Positions 6,813-17,516 of a stretch of 38,362 nt of DNA are shown piece after piece (positions within the stretch are counted from its first letter, which is position 1; each line of letters starts with the position of its first letter). The stretch comes from Nitrospira sp. CR1.2 (GTDB lineage: Bacteria > Nitrospirota > Nitrospiria > Nitrospirales > Nitrospiraceae). The notes under the pieces were generated by a model. The model saw nothing but the letters and a program-made list of their open reading frames with translations, had not been told where the DNA came from and did not search any database. The translations under genes and the position numbers were made by a program. The stretch is from contig WIAG01000036.1 in NCBI GenBank assembly GCA_014055495.1, positions 1 to 38,362 of the forward strand, in the 5' to 3' direction.

Positions 6813-7955
6813 TCAGTTTCCCGGTGAGGTCTTCGCAATGGCAAGGGCGGGCAGTGACGATTTGCATTCCCGAACGACCTGCGCAAATAGCTCGGTCAGT
6901 TTCGGGTCGAACCGCGTATTCGCCTCAAGCAGAATTTGCCGGATCGCGTCTTCAATGGACGTCGGTTGATGTCCAGGCATGTCGACCGTGAGATTGTCGA
7001 ATGCCTGTGCAACGGCGACGATGCGAGCCAGGAGCGGGATGCCTTCCTTTTCCAGTCCGTGGGGGTTGCCTGCCCCGTCGAATCGTTCATCGTGATACGA
7101 GACGATTTGTCCCACCTCAGCTTGAAGTCCGAGCGGCAAGAGCATGCGCGCTCCGGCTTCTGAACAGTCCCTGCCGCGAGCGCCGCTTCTGGAGCTGTCA
7201 TCGTCATCCGCCGCATACTTATAGTCAGGCAGGCTGATCTTTCCGATATCGTGTAGGAATGCGCCCAGCGCCAACGCTTTTTGGTCGGGTAGGGGCAGGT
7301 TCAACTGGTTGGCTAGGAGCGAGGCATAAAAGCTCACCCGACTGCAGTGGTTGAGCAGCTGACGATCTTTGGCTTCGAGAAGATCGGATAAGAGCGGGAT
7401 CAGCGATGTGACGTCCGCTGCGCCGCCCGCCTCCTCGCTCGTCGCATTGCCGATGGCGAAATAGTTGGTCTGAAGCTCCTTCCACGCGTGCCCCGCCTCC
7501 TCCTCGCTTCCCCACAAGGCCGTCGAGGTCCTCAGAAACGATCGTAGATAGTCCAGCCGCTGCTTTTTCTCCAGCGTTTGATTGATGAGCGTGATGAGCT
7601 CAGTGACGTTAAAGGGCTTGAGCAGATAGCCGGCCGCGCCGTGTCGAATGCCCTCCATGGCCGACTTGAGACTGCCGTAGCCGGTGATGATGATGACTTC
7701 GATGTCTGCGTAATCCTGCTTGATGTCCTGCAAAAGATCGATGCCCTGGCGGTCGGGGAGCTTCTGGTCGAGTGTGATCAGATCGATATGTTGATCCTTG
7801 AGCACCCGGAGCGCGGATTTGGCGTTGTCGGCGGAGTGGATCGTGAAGAAGGGGCGGAGAATAACTTTCAGCGCGTCTCGCGGTCCGGTCTCATCGTCGA
7901 CGACTAGAACCGATGGTTTGGCCCCGACGCGTTCACTCGATGACTGAGTCCCCAT
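6813..7955 (-). CDS. Response regulator with degenerate HD-GYP output domain
   Basis: 380 residues. The receiver is at about 14-130: acidic pair DD at 20-21, phospho-acceptor D63 in ITLDQKLPD, T91, and K113 in LLKPF. A linker leads to an HD-GYP-type domain at 195-370, related to RpfG, whose normal job is to hydrolyse cyclic di-GMP. The first motifs are intact: H203 in NHCSRVS, and FLHDIGKISLPD with H235-D236. Later ones differ from the consensus: the HHE site reads YHDE (287-290), the GYP signature reads GNP (296-298), and the VAD metal-ligand motif reads VAQ (Q317). It may be inactive or have a changed metal centre. CAGGAG lies upstream of the ATG. It is the last gene of the leftward island, 183 bases after the sigma-54 regulator, and converges on recN. 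Confidence 0.85.
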   Translation of the reverse strand: MGTQSSSERVGAKPSVLVVDDETGPRDALKVILRPFFTIHSADNAKSALRVLKDQHIDLITLDQKLPDRQGIDLLQDIKQDYADIEVIIITGYGSLKSAMEGIRHGAAGYLLKPFNVTELITLINQTLEKKQRLDYLRSFLRTSTALWGSEEEAGHAWKELQTNYFAIGNATSEEAGGAADVTSLIPLLSDLLEAKDRQLLNHCSRVSFYASLLANQLNLPLPDQKALALGAFLHDIGKISLPDYKYAADDDDSSRSGARGRDCSEAGARMLLPLGLQAEVGQIVSYHDERFDGAGNPHGLEKEGIPLLARIVAVAQAFDNLTVDMPGHQPTSIEDAIRQILLEANTRFDPKLTELFAQVVRECKSSLPALAIAKTSPGN

Positions 7956-8138: not shown

Positions 8139-9551
8139 TCACTCCTGAGGCGTTGCGGGCTCCGGATGCCCTCCATTCTCGGGCCGGCTGATTCCCAAGG
8201 TATCCATGCGATACTTCAACATGCGTCGGCTGATGCCCAGCATGGTGGCCGCATGCGTTTGTACGTAGGTAGTTCGCTTGAGCGCGTCCAGGATAATTTC
8301 CCGCTCGAATTCCATGACGGCCTTCTCCAGCGACATGCGTCCCGCGAGCGTGTCGTCCCGAAGGGAGCTTGATCGTGTATCGGTCCGGAGGATGTTGGGC
8401 AGATGCTCGGGCGTGATCACGGGTGAGCCCTTCGACCAGATAAATGCCTGTTCGATGATGTTTTCCATCTCGCGCACGTTTCCCGGCCAGGGGTAATGCG
8501 AGATCAATTCCAACGCGTCTTTGGTGAACTCCTGCGACGGTCGCTTTTCTTCTTCGATGCGTTTCGCGAGAAAGTGTTTGGCCAGCAGGGCGATGTCCTC
8601 TCCGCGTTCGCGGAGCGGAGGCAAATACAGCGCGATGACGTTGATGCGATAGTACAAGTCTTCACGAAACTGGTTCTTCCGAACCATGTCATCGAGATTT
8701 TTGTTGGTGGCTGCAACGATGCGGACATCGACCTTGATGGACTGCACGCCGCCGACTCTGGTGAATTCCCGTTCCTGGAGCACGCGGAGGAGCTTGGCTT
8801 GTGTCGCCGGGCTGAGGTCCCCGATTTCGTCGAGAAAAAGCGTGCCGGTATTCGCCAATTCGAACTGCCCCACCCGTCGGGCCGTGGCATCGGTAAACGA
8901 GCCCTTTTCGTGGCCGAACAATTCACTTTCGATGAGGGTTTCCGGCAAGGCCGCGCAGTTCAGGGCCACGAACGGACGATCGCGGCGCGCGCTGTTGTAG
9001 TGAATGGCTTTGGCCACTAATTCTTTTCCAGTTCCGCTCTCGCCGGTGACCAGGACGGTGGTACGACTATCGGCTACCTGCTCGATCTTAGCGTAGATCT
9101 CCTGCATGGACGGGCTTTTCCCGATCAGATTGTGAAATGCGTAGCGTTGGACGACCTGGGCCCGCAACTGTCGGACTTCGTGTTCCAATTCCTGTTTGCC
9201 CAGGGTCCGTTCGATCACGATTTGCAGTTCTTCCACGTCGAACGGCTTCGACAGGTAGTCGGCCGCTCCGAGCTTCATGGCATCGACGGCCGTTTTCACC
9301 GCTTTCGTGCCGGTCAGCATGATGACCGGCACGAGGCGATTTTCAGTCCGCATGGTCTGCAGCGCCGACAGCCCGTCCGCACCGGGTAGAATGACATCCA
9401 GCAGCACCAGGTCAGGGGCGTCATGCTTGAACATTCGGAGCCCCTCAGCGGCATCGGCCGCTTCCAGAATCTCGTAGGTCGGTTCCAGCACCGTTCTGAG
9501 CGAGGCGCGTACCCGTGGCTCGTCATCGACAAGTAGGACTCGTTTCTTCAT
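8139..9551 (-). CDS. Sigma-54-dependent response regulator (NtrC/AtoC type)
   Basis: 470 residues in three domains. The receiver (1-125) has D9/D10, phospho-acceptor D52 in LVLLDVILPG, T80 and K102. The AAA+ sigma-54 interaction domain (140-380) has Walker A GESGTGKE at 170-177, Walker B TLFLDEIGDL near 237-246, and arginine-finger region YYRINVI. The Fis-type DNA-binding helix-turn-helix is at the C-terminus (THAATMLGISRRMLKYRM). The sigma-54 contact loop, normally GAFTGA, reads GSFTDA at 217-222; the central F-T is kept. The gene starts one base after the stop of the histidine kinase gene, so the two are almost certainly a cognate pair. Target promoters are not evident in the window. Confidence 0.93.
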   Translation of the reverse strand: MKKRVLLVDDEPRVRASLRTVLEPTYEILEAADAAEGLRMFKHDAPDLVLLDVILPGADGLSALQTMRTENRLVPVIMLTGTKAVKTAVDAMKLGAADYLSKPFDVEELQIVIERTLGKQELEHEVRQLRAQVVQRYAFHNLIGKSPSMQEIYAKIEQVADSRTTVLVTGESGTGKELVAKAIHYNSARRDRPFVALNCAALPETLIESELFGHEKGSFTDATARRVGQFELANTGTLFLDEIGDLSPATQAKLLRVLQEREFTRVGGVQSIKVDVRIVAATNKNLDDMVRKNQFREDLYYRINVIALYLPPLRERGEDIALLAKHFLAKRIEEEKRPSQEFTKDALELISHYPWPGNVREMENIIEQAFIWSKGSPVITPEHLPNILRTDTRSSSLRDDTLAGRMSLEKAVMEFEREIILDALKRTTYVQTHAATMLGISRRMLKYRMDTLGISRPENGGHPEPATPQE

Positions 9552-9552
9552 G

Positions 9553-10836
9553 TTACTCCCGTACTCCTGCGCCTGTGGCGCCGCGATCCGGCACCGGAAG
9601 ATTGACGGAAAACGTGGACCCTGCTCCGACTTGGCTTTCGACGCTCAACGTCCCGCCATGCTCTCGGACGATCTGGTGTGCGGTGGTGAGTCCGAGACCC
9701 GCGCCATCCCCCGCACTGTTTGAATGTTTGGTTGTGAAAAAGGGGTCGAAAATATGCTCCAGATGCTCGAGGGCAATTCCACAGCCTTCGTCTTCGACCT
9801 GCAGTTGTACCCAGGATGTGCGGCCGGTCCTGGGCAACAGTCTGGTGTGAAGACGAATAGCACCGTTGCCCGAGGGCATCGCATCGAGCGCATTCAGCAG
9901 CAGATTCAGCAGAACCTGTTTGATTTGTTGGCGGTCGAGAAGGAGAAGGGGTAATTCAGGAGCCAGCAGAGTTTGCAATTCAATGTCGCGTCGTGACGCG
10001 GTTGAGGACACAAAGCCGATGCAGGAGGTCACCAACTCGTTCAGGTCTACTTCGGAAGGTTGGGGCGTCATGTAGCTGGCGTAGTCGAGAATCTCATGCA
10101 GGAGACGTTCGATGCGGTGAATGTCCTCAAGTGCAAGTGCGCTGAATTCCTTGATGAAGACGGGATCCTGCTGCCGCTGAGGGGCCAACTGGACAAATGT
10201 CTTGATCGATGTCAGCGGGTTTCGGATTTCATGGGCGAAGCCGCCCGCCATAATCTCCAATGAACGCAGTCGGTCTGTTCGCCTCATTAAGGTGGAGGAT
10301 CGGCGGAGGTCATCCTGAGCCAGATAGTGGTCCAATGTCGTGCCTGCGATTCGCGCCAGGGTTTCGGCAAGTGCTCTTTGATGCTCATCAAGGGAACGGT
10401 TCTGATCGATCGGCCCAAGCGTGCAGACGCCGAGCAGTCTCGCTTTGTTCCGGAGCGCCAGGCAGAGCGCGGTATCCGTGACCAGCATAGCCCGACCCGT
10501 TGCTGATGTGGGGGGATGGTCGGACCGAAGCAAGGACGGCTTGTCGGAAAGACCGTGAATCAGAGGATGCTCACCGGGCAAGACCAGGGGTAATCCGGCA
10601 CGGTGCTCCTGCCGGAGTGAGGCAATGAGGCGATAGTGATCACCCTCAGGCTCCCGTATCCAGAGGCCGCCCTGCGGCAGATGTGTCTGGTGAGAGAGGT
10701 TCGTGAGCAGAACATGGCCAAGGTGTGAAACATCGGTGGCTCCTCCGACGGCTTCAGAAAACTCGCTGATGATTCTGAGTATTTCCACAGAGCCTTGATG
10801 AATGGAGATCTGCCGACTGGACGGGTGGAGTGTCAT
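9553..10836 (-). CDS. Soluble sensor histidine kinase with GAF domain
   Basis: 427 residues from ATG 10836. The frame is open to 11001, but that extension overlaps the upstream gene and looks random, so the shorter form is preferred. No membrane segment is visible, so the signal is cytoplasmic. Residues about 15-180 form a GAF sensor domain. The dimerisation/phospho-acceptor helix reads GGFAHEIRNPLTSIK with the acceptor His at 202. The ATPase domain (about 300-425) has N-box LLNLLLNALDAMP, G1 VEDEGCGIA, F-box IFDPFFTTK and G2 GAGLGLTTAHQIV, so all catalytic boxes are present. It is immediately followed by the sigma-54 regulator (1-base gap), its likely phosphorylation target. The hybrid protein gene ends 106 bases upstream and may be another partner. 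Confidence 0.92.
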   Translation of the reverse strand: MTLHPSSRQISIHQGSVEILRIISEFSEAVGGATDVSHLGHVLLTNLSHQTHLPQGGLWIREPEGDHYRLIASLRQEHRAGLPLVLPGEHPLIHGLSDKPSLLRSDHPPTSATGRAMLVTDTALCLALRNKARLLGVCTLGPIDQNRSLDEHQRALAETLARIAGTTLDHYLAQDDLRRSSTLMRRTDRLRSLEIMAGGFAHEIRNPLTSIKTFVQLAPQRQQDPVFIKEFSALALEDIHRIERLLHEILDYASYMTPQPSEVDLNELVTSCIGFVSSTASRRDIELQTLLAPELPLLLLDRQQIKQVLLNLLLNALDAMPSGNGAIRLHTRLLPRTGRTSWVQLQVEDEGCGIALEHLEHIFDPFFTTKHSNSAGDGAGLGLTTAHQIVREHGGTLSVESQVGAGSTFSVNLPVPDRGATGAGVRE

Positions 10837-10942: not shown

Positions 10943-13900
10943 TCAGCCAGCGGAATCAGGTTTTTCAGCGGCGGCGAGGAGAAGCTGACCCGAGAGTGCA
11001 CGTAAGAGTCTCGGTGGGGCAGGCGTGACGTGCGCGAGGTAGCCGATCAAGGCCTCCTCCTCCATCGTGTGCAGCTGTCCGATGCGCAGGGCCATGCAAC
11101 ATTGGCCCATTCGATTCAAGGTCGTGCGAGCCTCGCCCGTGAACGCATCCAGCCCGAGTTCCGGTAAAGACCGCCGGTAAAGGCGAGCCACGTCTGCCGA
11201 GGGTGTAAATGCACTGATGACGAGTTTTCCTCCGGGCTTGAGTACTCGGAACAGTTCACGCAGTACGTGGAGGGGAGAGTGGGCGAAGGTCAGGGAGAGA
11301 TTGGCGACAATACGATCAAATGAGTGGTCGGCGAATGGGAGCGCCTCCGCGGATCGGCTCAGCGCCCATTGGCGATGGATCGGCGTTGCGCCGGACATGC
11401 GACCGGAGAAGAGTTGCTCGACGTGGTGCAGGGCGCTTCCGGTCGCTTCTCGTGCCTGCTGGAGTGCCATGGGAGAGAAGTCGGTGCCGACATAGTGAAG
11501 CCGTGCTCCAGGCCTCCGGGTTTGGGCGCGAAGGTGGTAGGAGAGATTGAGCAGCAGCAATCGAGCAAAGGAATGCAGTCCGCATCCGACATCGAGGATC
11601 GTGAGGTTTCCGTCGAATGGCTGGAGTAGTTGATACAACTGATCAACCGTGTGCCAATGTGCGGGTAGGTCGTCGAGGGTGGAAGCCACGTCGGAGTAGG
11701 CCTTCCAAAGCCGTTCGCGGCCGGCTGCGCCCAGTGAGTACTTGATGCGCAATCGATCCAATTCCACCCGGGCACGAGCGGCTGTCGTGTGGGAGAGCGT
11801 GGGAGCGGCAATGGGGGAAGGTTCTTTCGGGCCGTGTCCTGGTTGACAGAGTTGTAGAAGTTGCTGAGAACTTGCCGTGAGCAGTGACGGTGTGAGGCCA
11901 CCGGCGGTTGGCGTAGGTGGCGACAGACTGACTTTTCTGGCTCTCGATCCAAGCTGATTCATCGCATCGCTGAGGACGGCAGGCGATGGTTCGGGAATGG
12001 CAATATCCGGCGCCGCTTCCGCTGTCGTGAGGATCACCACGTCCGTGGCGCAATGCGAAAGATCCTCGTGGAGCGCTGCGATATTTGTGTACTGCGAGGC
12101 AACCGCATCCGCGAGGAAATGATCGATGTCGAGTGGAAGGCCCAGCAAGTTGCCCAATCCCAGTCTGGTTCCTGTGAGATGTTCCTGTACCAGATCTCGC
12201 TGATGCAGGGTGGATAGACAACTCCGGAGGTCGAGCGTTGGATTGAGGAGAATCAGCCGATGCAGCCGTCTCTGCCAATCTTGCCGGCGCAGCGCAATCC
12301 GTCCGAGAAGATCGGACGCCAGCAGCGTGAGCGGTGTATTCGGCCACTGTGTGTGGGTATAGGTGAGGATCGAGTCGAGATCGTCCTCCATCGAGGTAAA
12401 GGTGGTGTGCGATGGATCTCCCTCGCTCAGGCCGATGTGACGGCTATGATCGTACCGTAAGACTCGAAGCCCGGCCGCGGCCATGGCATAGGCAACGGCC
12501 ACATACTGTTGCTGAGTCGTACCGTATCCAGGGCAGAGCAGAATCAGGGGGACCTGCTCTGTGGCGGCTTCTCCGGAATGATCGTAAGACAGCGCGAGTT
12601 GATACCCCTCATGATTCTGAACCGTGCGCGACTCCGTGAGGATGGGGGAGTCCGGACGGGGTGTGAAGTGTTCATGAAACAGATTGCTGTGGTCGGCGAT
12701 GATGCGTCGGAGTTCATGCTCCTGCGCGGGGGAAAGACGGTCGAAGCGCACTCCGATACAGGTTGCTGCATGCCCCGACTGACCGACTGGTCGTGCTGAA
12801 CGTCGTTGAGCATATGACCAGACAACACGGGCATTCCATGGTTGCCGCGAGGCGTGCGGCTCATGGCGCTCCGACGAGGGGCCGGCTGGTTCGAGAGGAA
12901 ATAGGTGTAGCGCGAGATGACTCTCTGTAGAGTCGATGCCAGCTGGCAGCTCCAGGCATGCGCCATCCAGGCTGAGATTCACGAATTGACCCACCAGTCG
13001 GTGCGAAGGGTTGTGGGGGGCGACCAACTGAACGGAATAGATGAGTCTGAGGCGGGTGGTCTCGCGGCGCTCCGTTGCCGGTTGCACAAACGACGGCAGG
13101 GTGGGAGTGTGGGGCTCGACTGACGTGGCGGTGGGCAGAATCAAGCCTTCGAAGCTGATGGTCGTTGAGCCATCCTGCAGCCCATCAAGCAAGGATCGGA
13201 GCACATTGCGGTCCTGCTCAACGTTGAGTAAGAACGTAATGGCAAACTCTTTTAGGTCGGGGAGTGAGGCGTCCGCTGTATCCGAGGGTCGTTCGTGTAC
13301 GACACCCTGCAATTCGAGAAAACTTACCGGTGTCTTGATGACGATATAGGCCGGTTGTAGATGAATCGACGTCGAGTTGTCTCGAATAGTGACAAGGGCT
13401 CCCCCGGTGCTCATATTTCGTAGGACGCCACGAAGTGTGCTTCCTCCGATCGACAACTGAACAGGAAGTGAAACACGTGTACGTTCGGACCGACGCCGCT
13501 CAGGTTGAACGCGGGCAGCCTTCTGCTCCCGCTCTCCTCCCCTCATGGGGACGCGAGAGAGGCCTTTCGATACCGTGGTCTGACGTTCGGGCTGAGCAAT
13601 CTGCGAGGAACGATCCGTCATTGCAGGAATACAAACCGAAATGGTGAGCTGCCTATCGCCTGGATGTTCGATGTGAATGCTGCCCCCATGAGCCTGAACG
13701 ATCGTATGAGCTTGGAGCAGCTGTTCTGCCGACATCGTTTCGGGGGATTCATCGGTCGACCGTACGTCCATATCTGCGACCGCTGCTCGAATACTAAAGC
13801 TGGCGAATGTGCGCGTGGGTTCAGTCTGTGCCGGCCTATTGTGCTGGGCTATCGACGGGCGTTCGTTTTCAAGACGACCTGTTTCTATGGTGAGGTTGAC

Positions 13901-15232
13901 GGAGAGGTGGGGAGTGGACACGCAACGTCGTGCGAAACCGATGAGGATGTGCACGAGGTTCTCGAGGTCCGTAGGAGATCCAAGAATGGCCGGGGTTTGC
14001 TGTCCCAATTGGCTGGTGAGCACGATGCCTGCCCCATCTGGGGCTTGGTGTATCGACTGCGCAACGGTTTGAAGGATATCGTTGAGGTTGAGAGGAATAA
14101 ACTCGACAGGGTGGGCGGAGATGACTTGCGCGAGATGGTGGCTCAGTTGGTTCGCGCGCGACGCTTTGGCGATCATCGTTTCAACATGCTGCTCGATTCT
14201 GCTGTGCTGGATCGACGTCAGTAGCCGCTGCGAGTCCTGGAGTAACGTGGTAAGTGGCTGCTGCAATTGACGGGACACTCGAGCGGCTTCGCGCGTGAGT
14301 GTGAGTTGTCGATCGGATTCCCGGAGGCGGGATTCTAACTCCGCCAGGCGATCCTGTTGCGCTTTCTCATGCGACAGGTCGTGAAGCAACCCGACGGTGC
14401 CCAGATAACGATTCGTGGAGTCGAAGATTCCCTTGGCCGTTACTTCGACGGGTACGGTCAGCGTCGGGGTATCCGGTCGAGGCTTGCGATGCAGTGTGAT
14501 CTCAAGTTTTCGCGTGGAGCGACTGCCTGCCCGGCGCTCGTTCAACCGGAAGCGCCCCAACTGTTCGTGTTGCGGCGCGAGGAGAATCGAATAGTGTCGG
14601 CCCGCAAGTTCCTCTGGGGTGTACCCCAGCAAGGCGGTCACGGCTGCGCCGACGTAGACAAATCGACCCTCTGCGTCGAGTTCATAGAGTAAGTCGCTGA
14701 GTGTTTCAATGAATCGCAAATGTCGTTGAAAGGTGTGGTCCAATTTCATTTGGAGGTCACGCTTTTCAACGGCCTCTTGTACGGAGAACAGCAGTTCGGT
14801 GATGAAGCCGGGAGATTGTTTGAGCAGGAGGAAGTCGGCCCCGTTTTGTAGGGCCTGGAGTGCAGTGTGCGAATCATGGTCGTTCGTCTGGAGCAAGATC
14901 GCCGCATGGGGGGCATGCCGACGAAGGCGGGCGATGACATCCATTCCACGTTCGGGAGCCAACTCCTGATCGATAAGAATGATGTGCCAGTCACCCTGTT
15001 GGCTGAAGGTCAGCGCGTCTTCCGAGGTGTAGCCGGCTTCGATGCGACAACCGGAGAAGAAGTTACGTAGGGTGGTCGTGACCAGTTTGATTTCTTCGGG
15101 ATGTTCGTTGATGAGCAGGATGTTCAGCGATGGTTCCGGCAGGGACATGGAAGATCTCATGCTCGTCAAGCGGGGGTGTGATCGGAGTGCCCGGCGCATG
15201 CTGCGCAAGAGGTCGGGGCTGTACCACGGCAC
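10943..15232 (-). CDS. Giant hybrid regulator: REC-PAS-pseudokinase-PilZ-PilZ-LuxD-like hydrolase-methyltransferase
   Basis: One open frame of 1429 codons without interruption. Receiver 36-155: phospho-acceptor D88 in IILIDQELA, T116, K138, but the acidic pair reads N42-E43. PAS 168-285 (LLYELDAEGRFVYVG, LLGYTPEEL). A coiled coil (287-315) leads to an HisKA-like helix, SRQLQQPLTTL, with Arg321 where the phospho-acceptor His should be. An ATPase-like region (380-540) keeps only IVQAHGGSI and lacks the Gly boxes. Two PilZ domains, c-di-GMP binding in known cases, follow: R580xxxR584 with N606xSxxG611, and R723xxxR727 with N752xSxxG757. A LuxD-like alpha/beta hydrolase at 865-1130 has RYDHSRHIGLSEGD. 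A class I methyltransferase at 1160-1345 has ILDVGCG, VGTDFSP, FDRIVANLSL and RVLKPGG. The GTG at 15232 gives the longest form; ATG 15160 or 15148 lies closer to the receiver and may be the true start. Substrates are unknown. Confidence 0.85.
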   Translation of the reverse strand: MPWYSPDLLRSMRRALRSHPRLTSMRSSMSLPEPSLNILLINEHPEEIKLVTTTLRNFFSGCRIEAGYTSEDALTFSQQGDWHIILIDQELAPERGMDVIARLRRHAPHAAILLQTNDHDSHTALQALQNGADFLLLKQSPGFITELLFSVQEAVEKRDLQMKLDHTFQRHLRFIETLSDLLYELDAEGRFVYVGAAVTALLGYTPEELAGRHYSILLAPQHEQLGRFRLNERRAGSRSTRKLEITLHRKPRPDTPTLTVPVEVTAKGIFDSTNRYLGTVGLLHDLSHEKAQQDRLAELESRLRESDRQLTLTREAARVSRQLQQPLTTLLQDSQRLLTSIQHSRIEQHVETMIAKASRANQLSHHLAQVISAHPVEFIPLNLNDILQTVAQSIHQAPDGAGIVLTSQLGQQTPAILGSPTDLENLVHILIGFARRCVSTPHLSVNLTIETGRLENERPSIAQHNRPAQTEPTRTFASFSIRAAVADMDVRSTDESPETMSAEQLLQAHTIVQAHGGSIHIEHPGDRQLTISVCIPAMTDRSSQIAQPERQTTVSKGLSRVPMRGGEREQKAARVQPERRRSERTRVSLPVQLSIGGSTLRGVLRNMSTGGALVTIRDNSTSIHLQPAYIVIKTPVSFLELQGVVHERPSDTADASLPDLKEFAITFLLNVEQDRNVLRSLLDGLQDGSTTISFEGLILPTATSVEPHTPTLPSFVQPATERRETTRLRLIYSVQLVAPHNPSHRLVGQFVNLSLDGACLELPAGIDSTESHLALHLFPLEPAGPSSERHEPHASRQPWNARVVWSYAQRRSARPVGQSGHAATCIGVRFDRLSPAQEHELRRIIADHSNLFHEHFTPRPDSPILTESRTVQNHEGYQLALSYDHSGEAATEQVPLILLCPGYGTTQQQYVAVAYAMAAAGLRVLRYDHSRHIGLSEGDPSHTTFTSMEDDLDSILTYTHTQWPNTPLTLLASDLLGRIALRRQDWQRRLHRLILLNPTLDLRSCLSTLHQRDLVQEHLTGTRLGLGNLLGLPLDIDHFLADAVASQYTNIAALHEDLSHCATDVVILTTAEAAPDIAIPEPSPAVLSDAMNQLGSRARKVSLSPPTPTAGGLTPSLLTASSQQLLQLCQPGHGPKEPSPIAAPTLSHTTAARARVELDRLRIKYSLGAAGRERLWKAYSDVASTLDDLPAHWHTVDQLYQLLQPFDGNLTILDVGCGLHSFARLLLLNLSYHLRAQTRRPGARLHYVGTDFSPMALQQAREATGSALHHVEQLFSGRMSGATPIHRQWALSRSAEALPFADHSFDRIVANLSLTFAHSPLHVLRELFRVLKPGGKLVISAFTPSADVARLYRRSLPELGLDAFTGEARTTLNRMGQCCMALRIGQLHTMEEEALIGYLAHVTPAPPRLLRALSGQLLLAAAEKPDSAG

Positions 15233-15532: not shown

Positions 15533-16534
15533 CTAGCGTGCCGACGCGGTGTTTGCGTCTTGCGGACAGGCACCTGGCGTCATGTACAGAAGGTAGTTCC
15601 CCATCCCGTGTTGAATATTGGGGTTATGTAACGGGTGGTGGTGAACCATGACCATTTCATAGTCATCCTGCTTGGTGACGGTGAACCCCTTCCCGTCTCG
15701 GTACACTTGATGAGGGAGGAAATCACGGAACGTGCCGTCCGCATCGACCTCAGGAACGGTGCGGAGGAGCGTCTTCTGAGCAGTCTTGTTCTCGAGCGCG
15801 ACCATGAGAAGTTCGTCGTGCCCGTGCGGATAGGCAAATTTTACACAGCCGTCCATGTTGAATTTCAGCGGTGCCGACAGAACCGACACCCCGGGCTTAA
15901 TCTCGATGCCTTCGTCCGTCTGATCCGCGCCACGCTGGCCGAATTTGCTGTAACAGACGATGTTCACGCCCACCTGGTAGACGTCCATTTCCTGCACCTT
16001 CGTGCCCTTGGGAGCGACATACATCGTGAAGCGGGCCATGACATCCTTCGTCGGGGGGGCCTTATGATAGAAGGCCACGACCGACATGAGGTTCTGTTCC
16101 TTCCCGAGCTTGACGCCATACCCTTCAGGGAAACGAGCTTCCGTCATTTCCAAGCCGGCCCCGGCAAAAAAGAGCGGTTCGCCGTCGCACGAGACGCTGG
16201 GTTTGTCATTGTTCAGCATGAGAATGTGATGAAGATAATTCTTGGGAAGCGGTTTGCCGTCCTTTGTAAAGACCTCGGATTTGTAGCCGATCATATACGT
16301 GTCTTCGAGCAGCTGAAACACCTTCTTCGGCATACTGGATGCCAAGTCGCCGTCGTGGCCGGTGGGAAGGTCGACCGGACCGAAGGTCAATGTGACGGTG
16401 TGGTCGTCGATGGCCAGCGTGGTTTGGCCTAGGCTGGGCATGGTGGGGATGGCGTGATGCGCATGCCCGCCGTCGGCGTAGGCCGGACCGGTAATTCCCA
16501 AGAGTAAGCCCATTACTAGAAACACACGATTCAT
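15533..16534 (-). CDS. Secreted protein with the copper-ligand pattern of peptidylglycine/dopamine monooxygenases
   Basis: 333 residues from ATG 16534, preceded by GAGGAGGAG; upstream in-frame codons are not needed. Residues 1-20 are a signal peptide (cut after AYA), followed by a His-rich mature start (GGHAHHA). The ligand pattern parallels the two-copper PHM family. H102-H103 sit in YLHHILMLNND (PHM has HHMLL). H157 is in AFYHKAP. H237-x-H239 is in AYPHGHDELL. M311 is in HGMGNYLLYM, which resembles the MCNLYIMYY region around the PHM methionine ligand. If correct, it is a periplasmic or outer-surface copper enzyme or copper-binding protein. I know of no substrate. The family link is by eye and remote; it could instead be a non-catalytic cupredoxin-like copper carrier. 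It lies 73 bases after the SnoaL-like gene on the same strand. Confidence 0.7.
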   Translation of the reverse strand: MNRVFLVMGLLLGITGPAYADGGHAHHAIPTMPSLGQTTLAIDDHTVTLTFGPVDLPTGHDGDLASSMPKKVFQLLEDTYMIGYKSEVFTKDGKPLPKNYLHHILMLNNDKPSVSCDGEPLFFAGAGLEMTEARFPEGYGVKLGKEQNLMSVVAFYHKAPPTKDVMARFTMYVAPKGTKVQEMDVYQVGVNIVCYSKFGQRGADQTDEGIEIKPGVSVLSAPLKFNMDGCVKFAYPHGHDELLMVALENKTAQKTLLRTVPEVDADGTFRDFLPHQVYRDGKGFTVTKQDDYEMVMVHHHPLHNPNIQHGMGNYLLYMTPGACPQDANTASAR

Positions 16535-16607
16535 AGCTCCTCCTCGTTGTGACAAACCGGCCGTGGTGAACATTGCTCAAACTATGCGGGTAAGAGTCAC
16601 CCGGCCG

Positions 16608-17516
16608 CTAGGGCGCCGGCGGGGGCGGGGTGAGTCGTTTCCACTGATAGGTGCCGCCATGTTGGCGAGGTGGAATGTTGTTCCGGGTACCGACACGCAC
16701 ATACCACCAGATACCCCTCGCTTCGGTTCCGTCTTCGGAGAGAATGACTTCGAAGGCGCCTTCCCGGTCGTTTCCGGTCTGTTTCCAGGTGCCTTGCCAC
16801 CGGTGATCGTCGAAGCTGGTGGTGGCGAACTGTCCCTCTTGCCAGGTATAGGGGCCGTTCCCCTGGGCGTCCAGGCTCGCGACGTACTTCTTGTTGTCCT
16901 CAACCTCTGTCACTTCCCACTGTCCGCTGAGATCGACACCGTTCGGCACAGCCGGCTGGGTATCCGATGCGCGATGCAGCAGTGAGGTCGTGTCGGCGGC
17001 TCGTCCGGTATCATGGTCATGATGACGAGTGGATTCGTGCCATGCGACGAGGATCCAGCGGCCGTCCCGTCGCTCCAAGACGCCTGTTTCGCGTAGCGGG
17101 AGAATCATGCGCCGCGTGAGGTCTCCTGGGTCGACGTAGCGGATATAGTTCAATTCCATGGCGAACCAGGCGACATCTCCCCTGGTCCACATGTGCAGGC
17201 TGGTGATGGGAATCTCCAGTTTGGTGACGGAGTCGAATTCACTGCGCATGTCGCTGGCCAGGTCCGGCCAGCCGACATATTTGCGTCCATCGATCGTATA
17301 ACCAATGGCATCGGTATCGTGGGACATGTATGTCGACATCGTGGCGAGGTCCCGCTCGGCATTCGCTCGCACCAGGGCGCGCAAGGTGTCCTCCGGCCCG
17401 ACAGGCTCTGCTGCCGGTACAGCGGACGCGCAGAGCAGGCTCAACAGCATGACAATCCCAAGGCGGTGTAGGAACAATCGGACGCGTGCTGGGTTGTCGA
17501 GGGGCTGGGCGCTCAT
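16608..17516 (-). CDS. Secreted protein with N-terminal SnoaL/NTF2-like domain
   Basis: 302 residues. An N-terminal hydrophobic segment (residues 19-36, IVMLLSLLCASAVPAAEP) is a signal peptide. Residues about 40-165 match an NTF2/SnoaL-like fold: an opening helix DTLRALVRANAERDLATMSTYM, then D-x-D-A, then GRKYVGWPDLASDMRSEF, then beta strands ending DGRWILVAWHES. These domains form a cone-shaped pocket and often bind or convert small molecules. Residues 190-300 form a second beta-rich part with many Trp and Gly (SGQWEVTEVEDN, RWQGTWKQTGNDREG), like a lipocalin or repeat-type barrel, of unknown role. The C-terminus is proline-rich. Substrate unknown. The gene follows the PP2C gene by about 80 bases on the same strand. 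Confidence 0.7.
   Translation of the reverse strand: MSAQPLDNPARVRLFLHRLGIVMLLSLLCASAVPAAEPVGPEDTLRALVRANAERDLATMSTYMSHDTDAIGYTIDGRKYVGWPDLASDMRSEFDSVTKLEIPITSLHMWTRGDVAWFAMELNYIRYVDPGDLTRRMILPLRETGVLERRDGRWILVAWHESTRHHDHDTGRAADTTSLLHRASDTQPAVPNGVDLSGQWEVTEVEDNKKYVASLDAQGNGPYTWQEGQFATTSFDDHRWQGTWKQTGNDREGAFEVILSEDGTEARGIWWYVRVGTRNNIPPRQHGGTYQWKRLTPPPPAP

Follow-up and report, generated by a model that had tools for sequence, protein, structure and literature searches.

LONG, a multi-domain protein of Nitrospira: a candidate pseudoenzyme hub beside a histidine kinase and an NtrC regulator

The 38,362-nucleotide stretch analysed here (the window; contig WIAG01000036.1 of Nitrospira sp. CR1.2, part of a 4.06-Mb assembly from a genus that includes Candidatus Nitrospira defluvii) encodes a long protein, LONG, in which a receiver, a PAS domain, a pseudokinase, two PilZ domains, a LuxD-like hydrolase and a methyltransferase follow one another in a single chain. 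At the sequence level, LONG combines this architecture with the loss of its kinase and hydrolase active sites, purifying selection, and a conserved position next to genes for a histidine kinase, an NtrC regulator and an HD-GYP protein. The same comparisons place an intact paralogue beside a kinase with a seven-transmembrane (7TM) part, show 7TM kinases next to acyl enzymes time and again, and indicate that catalytic residues and 7TM segments were lost together. The reading that we prefer, and to which we give about even chances, is that LONG is a maintained pseudoenzyme, a cytoplasmic hub integrating signals that would bind cyclic di-GMP (c-di-GMP) and set the activity of the adjacent kinase and NtrC regulator, derived from a lipid-signal synthase working like PhcB/PhcS. 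From these patterns we infer that LONG binds c-di-GMP and controls the kinase and NtrC regulator, that each 7TM kinase responds to a ligand made by its paired enzyme, and of what kind that ligand would be.

Architecture of LONG and the state of its active sites

The open frame at 10943-15232 (reverse strand, as are all window features below) runs uninterrupted for 1429 codons when counted from its first GTG at 15232. Many orthologues have an in-frame stop upstream of about residue 29, and Met29 is near-invariant in the orthologue alignment, so that the likely coding sequence is 10943-15148 (1401 amino acids), with translation probably starting at residue 29, the ATG at 15148. An earlier note, made from the letters of the window, had described one unbroken frame with this domain order; the frame and the order stand, with the start probably moved. 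Above Pfam gathering cut-offs, LONG matches Response_reg (residues 38-139, 3e-11), PAS (173-285, 1e-9), PilZ in two stretches (9e-15), Hydrolase_4 (896-1004, 5e-10), Acyl_transf_2/LuxD (892-982, 2e-5) and Methyltransf_11 (1213-1339, 7e-14), which recovers by hidden Markov model every family that the note had named. LONG occurs in 29/29 genomes of the genus (the Nitrospira defluvii group), complete in 27 of them and divided over two contigs in G019 and in G024, and 119 of the 175 family genomes hold matches at E 1e-40, many of them full-length, with 29-45% identity and the same order. Because full-length orthologues of similar length and equal domain order exist in other genomes, the frame is neither chance nor an assembly artefact. 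The separate components are already known; the LONG architecture, the pseudoenzyme conversion and the pairs of PilZ-acyl enzyme and 7TM kinase did not turn up in searches of the open literature, most subscription papers being outside reach, and the architecture appears undescribed there, as the note had supposed.

The LuxD-like alpha/beta hydrolase (11828-12637, residues 866-1135) is predicted to be catalytically dead. Its Ser-Asp-His triad is absent from the window protein and close orthologues: the nucleophile is replaced by Asp974 (codon 12311-12313), and the acid and the histidine are lost. Neither nucleophile nor histidine survives in any close orthologue, every genus member included, and Asp974 is near-invariant among LONG orthologues. 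Among 71 aligned decayed sequences, including one (L075) that lacks the hydrolase altogether, serine has become aspartate in 66 and histidine is gone in all but one; the triad is kept in 43/43 homologues outside the decayed group and aligns with that of LuxD (1THT). An AlphaFold model of residues 560-1429 from 11 sequences was poor (mean predicted local distance difference test score 48.5, usable for the hydrolase core only), and Foldseek ranked 1THT first for this low-confidence model, which together with the Acyl_transf_2/LuxD match bears out the LuxD-like label given in the note. The LuxD myristoyl-acyl carrier protein (ACP) thioesterase is by fold the closest solved alpha/beta hydrolase relative of the LONG domain; for the intact homologues of that domain, in which the triad is kept, it is the closest by sequence as well. 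Unlike LuxD, the LONG hydrolase carries Asp for Ser, has no catalytic His, is fused to PilZ and methyltransferase domains and stands in no luxCE operon. A haloalkane-dehalogenase-like chemistry at Asp974 was considered and rejected, because the histidine was lost along with the serine.

The region that the note had called a pseudokinase (13610-14347, residues 296-541) is just that, a DHp+CA remnant defined by a profile-profile match and by its H and N boxes. It gave no Pfam match, HisKA and HATPase included. A 29-orthologue alignment of these residues matched the DHp+CA part of the neighbouring kinase in hhalign (99.1%, E 6e-19, 225 columns), and a hydrolase control scored 0.2%. The phospho-accepting histidine has become Arg321, the N box and G boxes are gone, and in most orthologues the histidine position holds Arg, Lys, Gln or a similar residue.

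The methyltransferase is of class I (10946-11737, residues 1166-1429). Its S-adenosylmethionine (SAM) motif I reads DVGCGLH, with GCGxG changed to GCGxH by replacement of the third glycine throughout the genus; there the acidic residue that follows beta-2 persists (VGTDFS in the window protein), as does an LPFxDxSFDR motif. Beyond the genus, motif-I glycines or the beta-2 acid are lost, the latter becoming Gly or Arg in 17/71 decayed rows. The earlier note had proposed that phosphorylation and c-di-GMP signals, merged in LONG, pass to a methyltransferase, and had counted two acyl/methyl-type output domains. The domain order behind that proposal holds; the enzymatic output finds no support in that form: the hydrolase has lost its nucleophile and histidine, the SAM motif is altered, the canonical acidic pair is missing from the receiver, and the conserved kinase-NtrC-HD-GYP operon argues for transcriptional signalling rather than a methyltransferase as output. 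That the methyltransferase, perhaps with the hydrolase, is an active output enzyme switched by c-di-GMP and phosphorylation is an account we consider unlikely. It draws on the strength of the Methyltransf_11 match, on the beta-2 Asp and LPFxDxSFDR kept in the genus and on constraint in this domain (the substitution-rate ratios below), and it meets the loss of the hydrolase triad in all genus orthologues, a dead kinase remnant, the kinase/NtrC context, and the substitutions in motif I and at the beta-2 acid. The intact paralogue at another locus is better suited than LONG to an enzymatic reading.

Within the genus, the ratio of nonsynonymous to synonymous substitution rates (dN/dS) is 0.04-0.15 in the receiver, 0.16-0.28 in the dead hydrolase and 0.10-0.28 in the methyltransferase, and reaches 0.8 in the fast-evolving PilZ2 and CA regions. 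The corresponding domains of the intact paralogue have ratios of 0.07-0.11 (hydrolase) and 0.05-0.08 (methyltransferase); those of LONG are about two to three times higher, yet far below 1. Most LONG domains are under purifying selection. A gene decaying without function would account for the loss of several active sites and for the fast PilZ2 and CA regions. We rejected this on dN/dS (about 0.03-0.3 in most domains) and regard it as highly improbable for a syntenic gene that persists in all genus genomes and most of the family, with some 1400 codons open and a near-invariant Asp974.

The receiver (14768-15127, residues 36-155, from Pfam and alignment) retains a near-invariant Asp88 together with the Thr and Lys; the acidic pair has become Asn-Glu within the genus, and its erosion has gone further elsewhere. 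With the PAS domain (14348-14740, residues 165-295, from Pfam) it forms the best-conserved region of the protein, which is consistent with a role in protein contacts. PilZ 1 (13133-13507, residues 576-700; match 13190-13501) and PilZ 2 (12677-13081, residues 718-852; match 12695-13072), the fastest-evolving domain, both pass the Pfam cut-off, and the features expected of a c-di-GMP receptor (fold, RxxxR and (D/N)xSxxG) are found in each, the second motif as NxSxxG. RxxxR is near-invariant in both copies across orthologues, so the two PilZ domains that the note had read from the sequence are well founded, and both would be expected to bind c-di-GMP. Such signalling is present in the genome, which encodes 29 PilZ and several GGDEF domains. 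The two motifs are shared with the YcgR/PilZ-type receptors; unlike these, the PilZ domains here are joined to acyl enzymes or pseudoenzymes and a two-component system, not to a flagellar motor or cellulose synthase.

An intact paralogue and the joint loss of catalytic residues and 7TM segments

Elsewhere in the window genome lies a 949-residue PilZ-PilZ-hydrolase-methyltransferase paralogue with triad and SAM motif intact (G000:C117:8987-11563); in Candidatus Nitrospira defluvii the paralogue occupies about 939683-942277 of FP929003.1. Directly downstream of it is a gene for a 1002-residue kinase with two HisKA_7TM units, GAF, HisKA and HATPase. Genes for a Pup ligase and proteasome subunits (L065:13647-18807, reverse strand) are located close to this pair. 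Relatives in the Nitrospirota families f2, f19, f23, f40 and f41 are hydrolase-methyltransferases with a diverged N-terminus and one PilZ or none, and in almost every case a 7TM kinase gene comes directly after them. In L130 and L131, whose LuxD-methyltransferase genes are the two most distant, fabF directly precedes that gene, and the L131 cluster also holds a separate receiver-PAS-HisKA-HATPase gene; a cluster of this kind has the building blocks for a fusion that could have given rise to LONG.

Intermediates exist within the Nitrospiraceae. In early-branching members, proteins of the LONG locus combine receiver-PAS with an intact triad, and the kinase has its 7TM part (L058 and L077, and as two genes L076). 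In the tree, active sequences are basal and the decayed ones nested among them, requiring a minimum of two losses. Among the 91 loci with a visible neighbouring kinase, 25/25 intact enzymes are accompanied by a 7TM kinase and 66/66 decayed ones by a kinase without it. The latter kinases are mostly about 425 residues long, and presence or absence of the 7TM part was checked by Pfam and hydropathy.

The preferred reading, of LONG as a pseudoenzyme hub, would order these observations as follows. The ancestor would have been a working (PilZ)-LuxD-like acyl hydrolase-methyltransferase paired with a 7TM-GAF histidine kinase, a pair that most likely produced and sensed an acyl-derived signal, in the manner of PhcB/PhcS with their methyl 3-hydroxy fatty acids. 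The enzyme of the window locus would have been fused behind a receiver-PAS-kinase protein and have lost catalysis, and the kinase its membrane part, so that this kinase probably hears the pseudoenzyme and no longer an outside signal; at another locus the genus would retain an intact copy of the original pair. Through its PilZ domains LONG most likely senses c-di-GMP; it may also sense a ligand in the pocket of the dead hydrolase or of the methyltransferase. The receiver-PAS-DHp stalk would probably pass this on to the soluble GAF kinase and to the NtrC regulator, a direction of flow that we infer, and the HD-GYP protein would close the loop to c-di-GMP.

One LuxD-methyltransferase gene reads as fused to its 7TM kinase (L134). 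We did not use this as proof of interaction; the fusion is an apparent read-through of a frame shift at the first gene's end.

Acyl enzymes paired with 7TM kinases across Nitrospirota

The pairing extends beyond LuxD-like enzymes. LuxD-methyltransferases lie directly upstream of homologous 7TM kinases in six families, with gaps between partner enzyme gene and kinase of mostly -13 to +20 nucleotides, and in genomes without an intact LuxD-methyltransferase, homologous kinases lie directly downstream of other enzymes. These include a PilZ-HMG-CoA reductase (L190; L225 without a scored PilZ), PilZ-FabH with the catalytic Cys kept (L075, L192, L226, L228), PilZ-acyl-ACP reductases (L191, L193, L214-L216, L218, L221-L224) and an acyl-ACP reductase alone (L231). 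The PilZ part of the acyl-ACP reductases is weak, with canonical motifs missing, and L214 has no PilZ match. Also found upstream of 7TM kinases are a PilZ-methyltransferase (L208, L209), a PilZ-TenA/haem-oxygenase-like protein (L204:2780-4390, reverse strand), a methyltransferase, thioester reductase or ketosynthase preceded by a FabF-type gene (L232-L234), a CrtI-like desaturase (L227) and an aldehyde dehydrogenase (L219).

At one locus, seen in one genus (genome G042; L075:2933-4498, reverse strand, with L075:4697-6913), a PilZ-FabH gene stands between a LONG remnant and a 7TM kinase, as if one synthase had been exchanged for another in place. This remnant has its hydrolase deleted and its methyltransferase motifs intact.

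The recurrence of one enzyme before one kinase is reminiscent of the synthase-receptor pairs of autoinducer systems. Its closest counterpart on record is the Phc quorum sensing system of Ralstonia, which uses the methyltransferase PhcB, the kinase PhcS, the receiver-kinase PhcR and methyl 3-hydroxy fatty acids (PMC8578825, PMC11960443). There too an acyl-linked methyltransferase gene adjoins one for a membrane histidine kinase, as in the intact paralogue and its relatives, not in the window locus; the receiver-kinase has counterparts in the separate receiver-PAS-kinase gene of L131 and in the N-terminal part of LONG. Unlike Phc, the systems described here have a hydrolase-methyltransferase fusion, a PilZ fusion, a 7TM-GAF kinase and an NtrC instead of a LysR regulator, and at the window locus the enzyme is predicted to be dead and the kinase soluble.

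LONG could also be a pseudoenzyme hub whose ancestral pair served membrane homeostasis, the enzymes tuning lipids and the 7TM kinase sensing the state of the membrane. The partners are varied enzymes of acyl thioesters, isoprenoids and lipids (HMG-CoA reductase, desaturase, KAS), not all of which need make diffusible signals. We nevertheless find this origin rather improbable: one enzyme per kinase, with very different chemistries before homologous kinases, looks like synthase-receptor pairing, the 7TM part was lost together with the catalytic residues, and the PilZ fusion suggests conditional production. More tentatively than for LONG itself, we suggest that Nitrospirota may hold a so far unrecognised family of acyl-signal synthases, fused to PilZ and gated by c-di-GMP, whose chemistry can be swapped and whose members each have a 7TM-GAF kinase as partner, LONG being a dead synthase turned intracellular receptor and scaffold of the same pathway. 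Nitrospira are the main nitrite oxidisers and comammox bacteria, and to our knowledge little is known of their biofilm regulation or communication. If true, these proposals would provide candidate lipid-signal synthases and receptors across a phylum, tied to c-di-GMP, and a clean natural case of an enzyme becoming a signalling pseudoenzyme, with living intermediates.

Several points weigh against a synthase-derived hub. The association of dead enzyme and missing 7TM rests, by the tree, on about two independent events and so carries no formal significance. The survey of genes upstream of 7TM kinases consists of counts without a neighbourhood null. Second 7TM-GAF kinases of the sister family f2 (L195-L206) lie about 140-500 nucleotides downstream of a gene of about 245 residues, a REG-2-like HAD hydrolase in the one representative identified (L198); one further 7TM kinase neighbours a beta-propeller gene and one has no partner. 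The link to PhcB/PhcS is by analogy, and no NCBIfam match named either protein. Within LONG, the receiver may still be phosphorylated because its phospho-acceptor Asp is kept, and the methyltransferase of the window genus, with its beta-2 Asp and most motifs, may bind SAM or be active.

Neighbours of LONG

Across Nitrospiraceae the gene order is conserved with few exceptions: RNase_H, PP2C, SnoaL, a secreted-looking protein, LONG, kinase, NtrC, HD-GYP and an SMC/RecN-like gene. The kinase (9553-10836) is a soluble GAF-HisKA-HATPase histidine kinase homologous to the 7TM kinases without their 7TM part; its frame opens at 11001, with a conserved start near 10836. The NtrC-type sigma-54 response regulator (8139-9551) ranks with the best-conserved genes here (67-96% identity), and elsewhere in the genome it has only distant paralogues (identity at most 48%). 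Together they resemble the GAF kinases and NtrC regulators of PrsK/PrsR and AtoS/AtoC type; unlike those, they fall below the respective NCBIfam cut-offs and their partner is a multi-domain pseudoenzyme. Sigma-54 sites within the window were no more frequent than expected by chance. A syntenic receiver-HD-GYP protein follows (6813-7955), by Pfam a predicted c-di-GMP phosphodiesterase.

Two arrangements that might seem to connect LONG directly with the regulator were set aside. In L050 (5116-10227, reverse strand) LONG runs straight into the AAA+ and Fis portion of the NtrC regulator and the locus kinase is absent. This was seen in a single genome, looks like a deletion and is possibly an artefact; we did not use it as proof of interaction. 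In L051, L132 and L133 NtrC comes directly after LONG with no kinase between them, which seemed to indicate direct control; this was rejected, since each of these genomes has a homologous 7TM kinase elsewhere, beside another enzyme.

Upstream, a SnoaL_3 protein identified by Pfam (16608-17516) and a conserved secreted-looking protein of unassigned family (15533-16573) are syntenic neighbours. The latter has 346 residues and 65-91% identity across Nitrospiraceae, and no Pfam, NCBIfam or PDB relative of it was found. Its invariant HH, H, HxH and Met are spaced in what we take to be the manner of the ligands in PHM-type copper monooxygenases.

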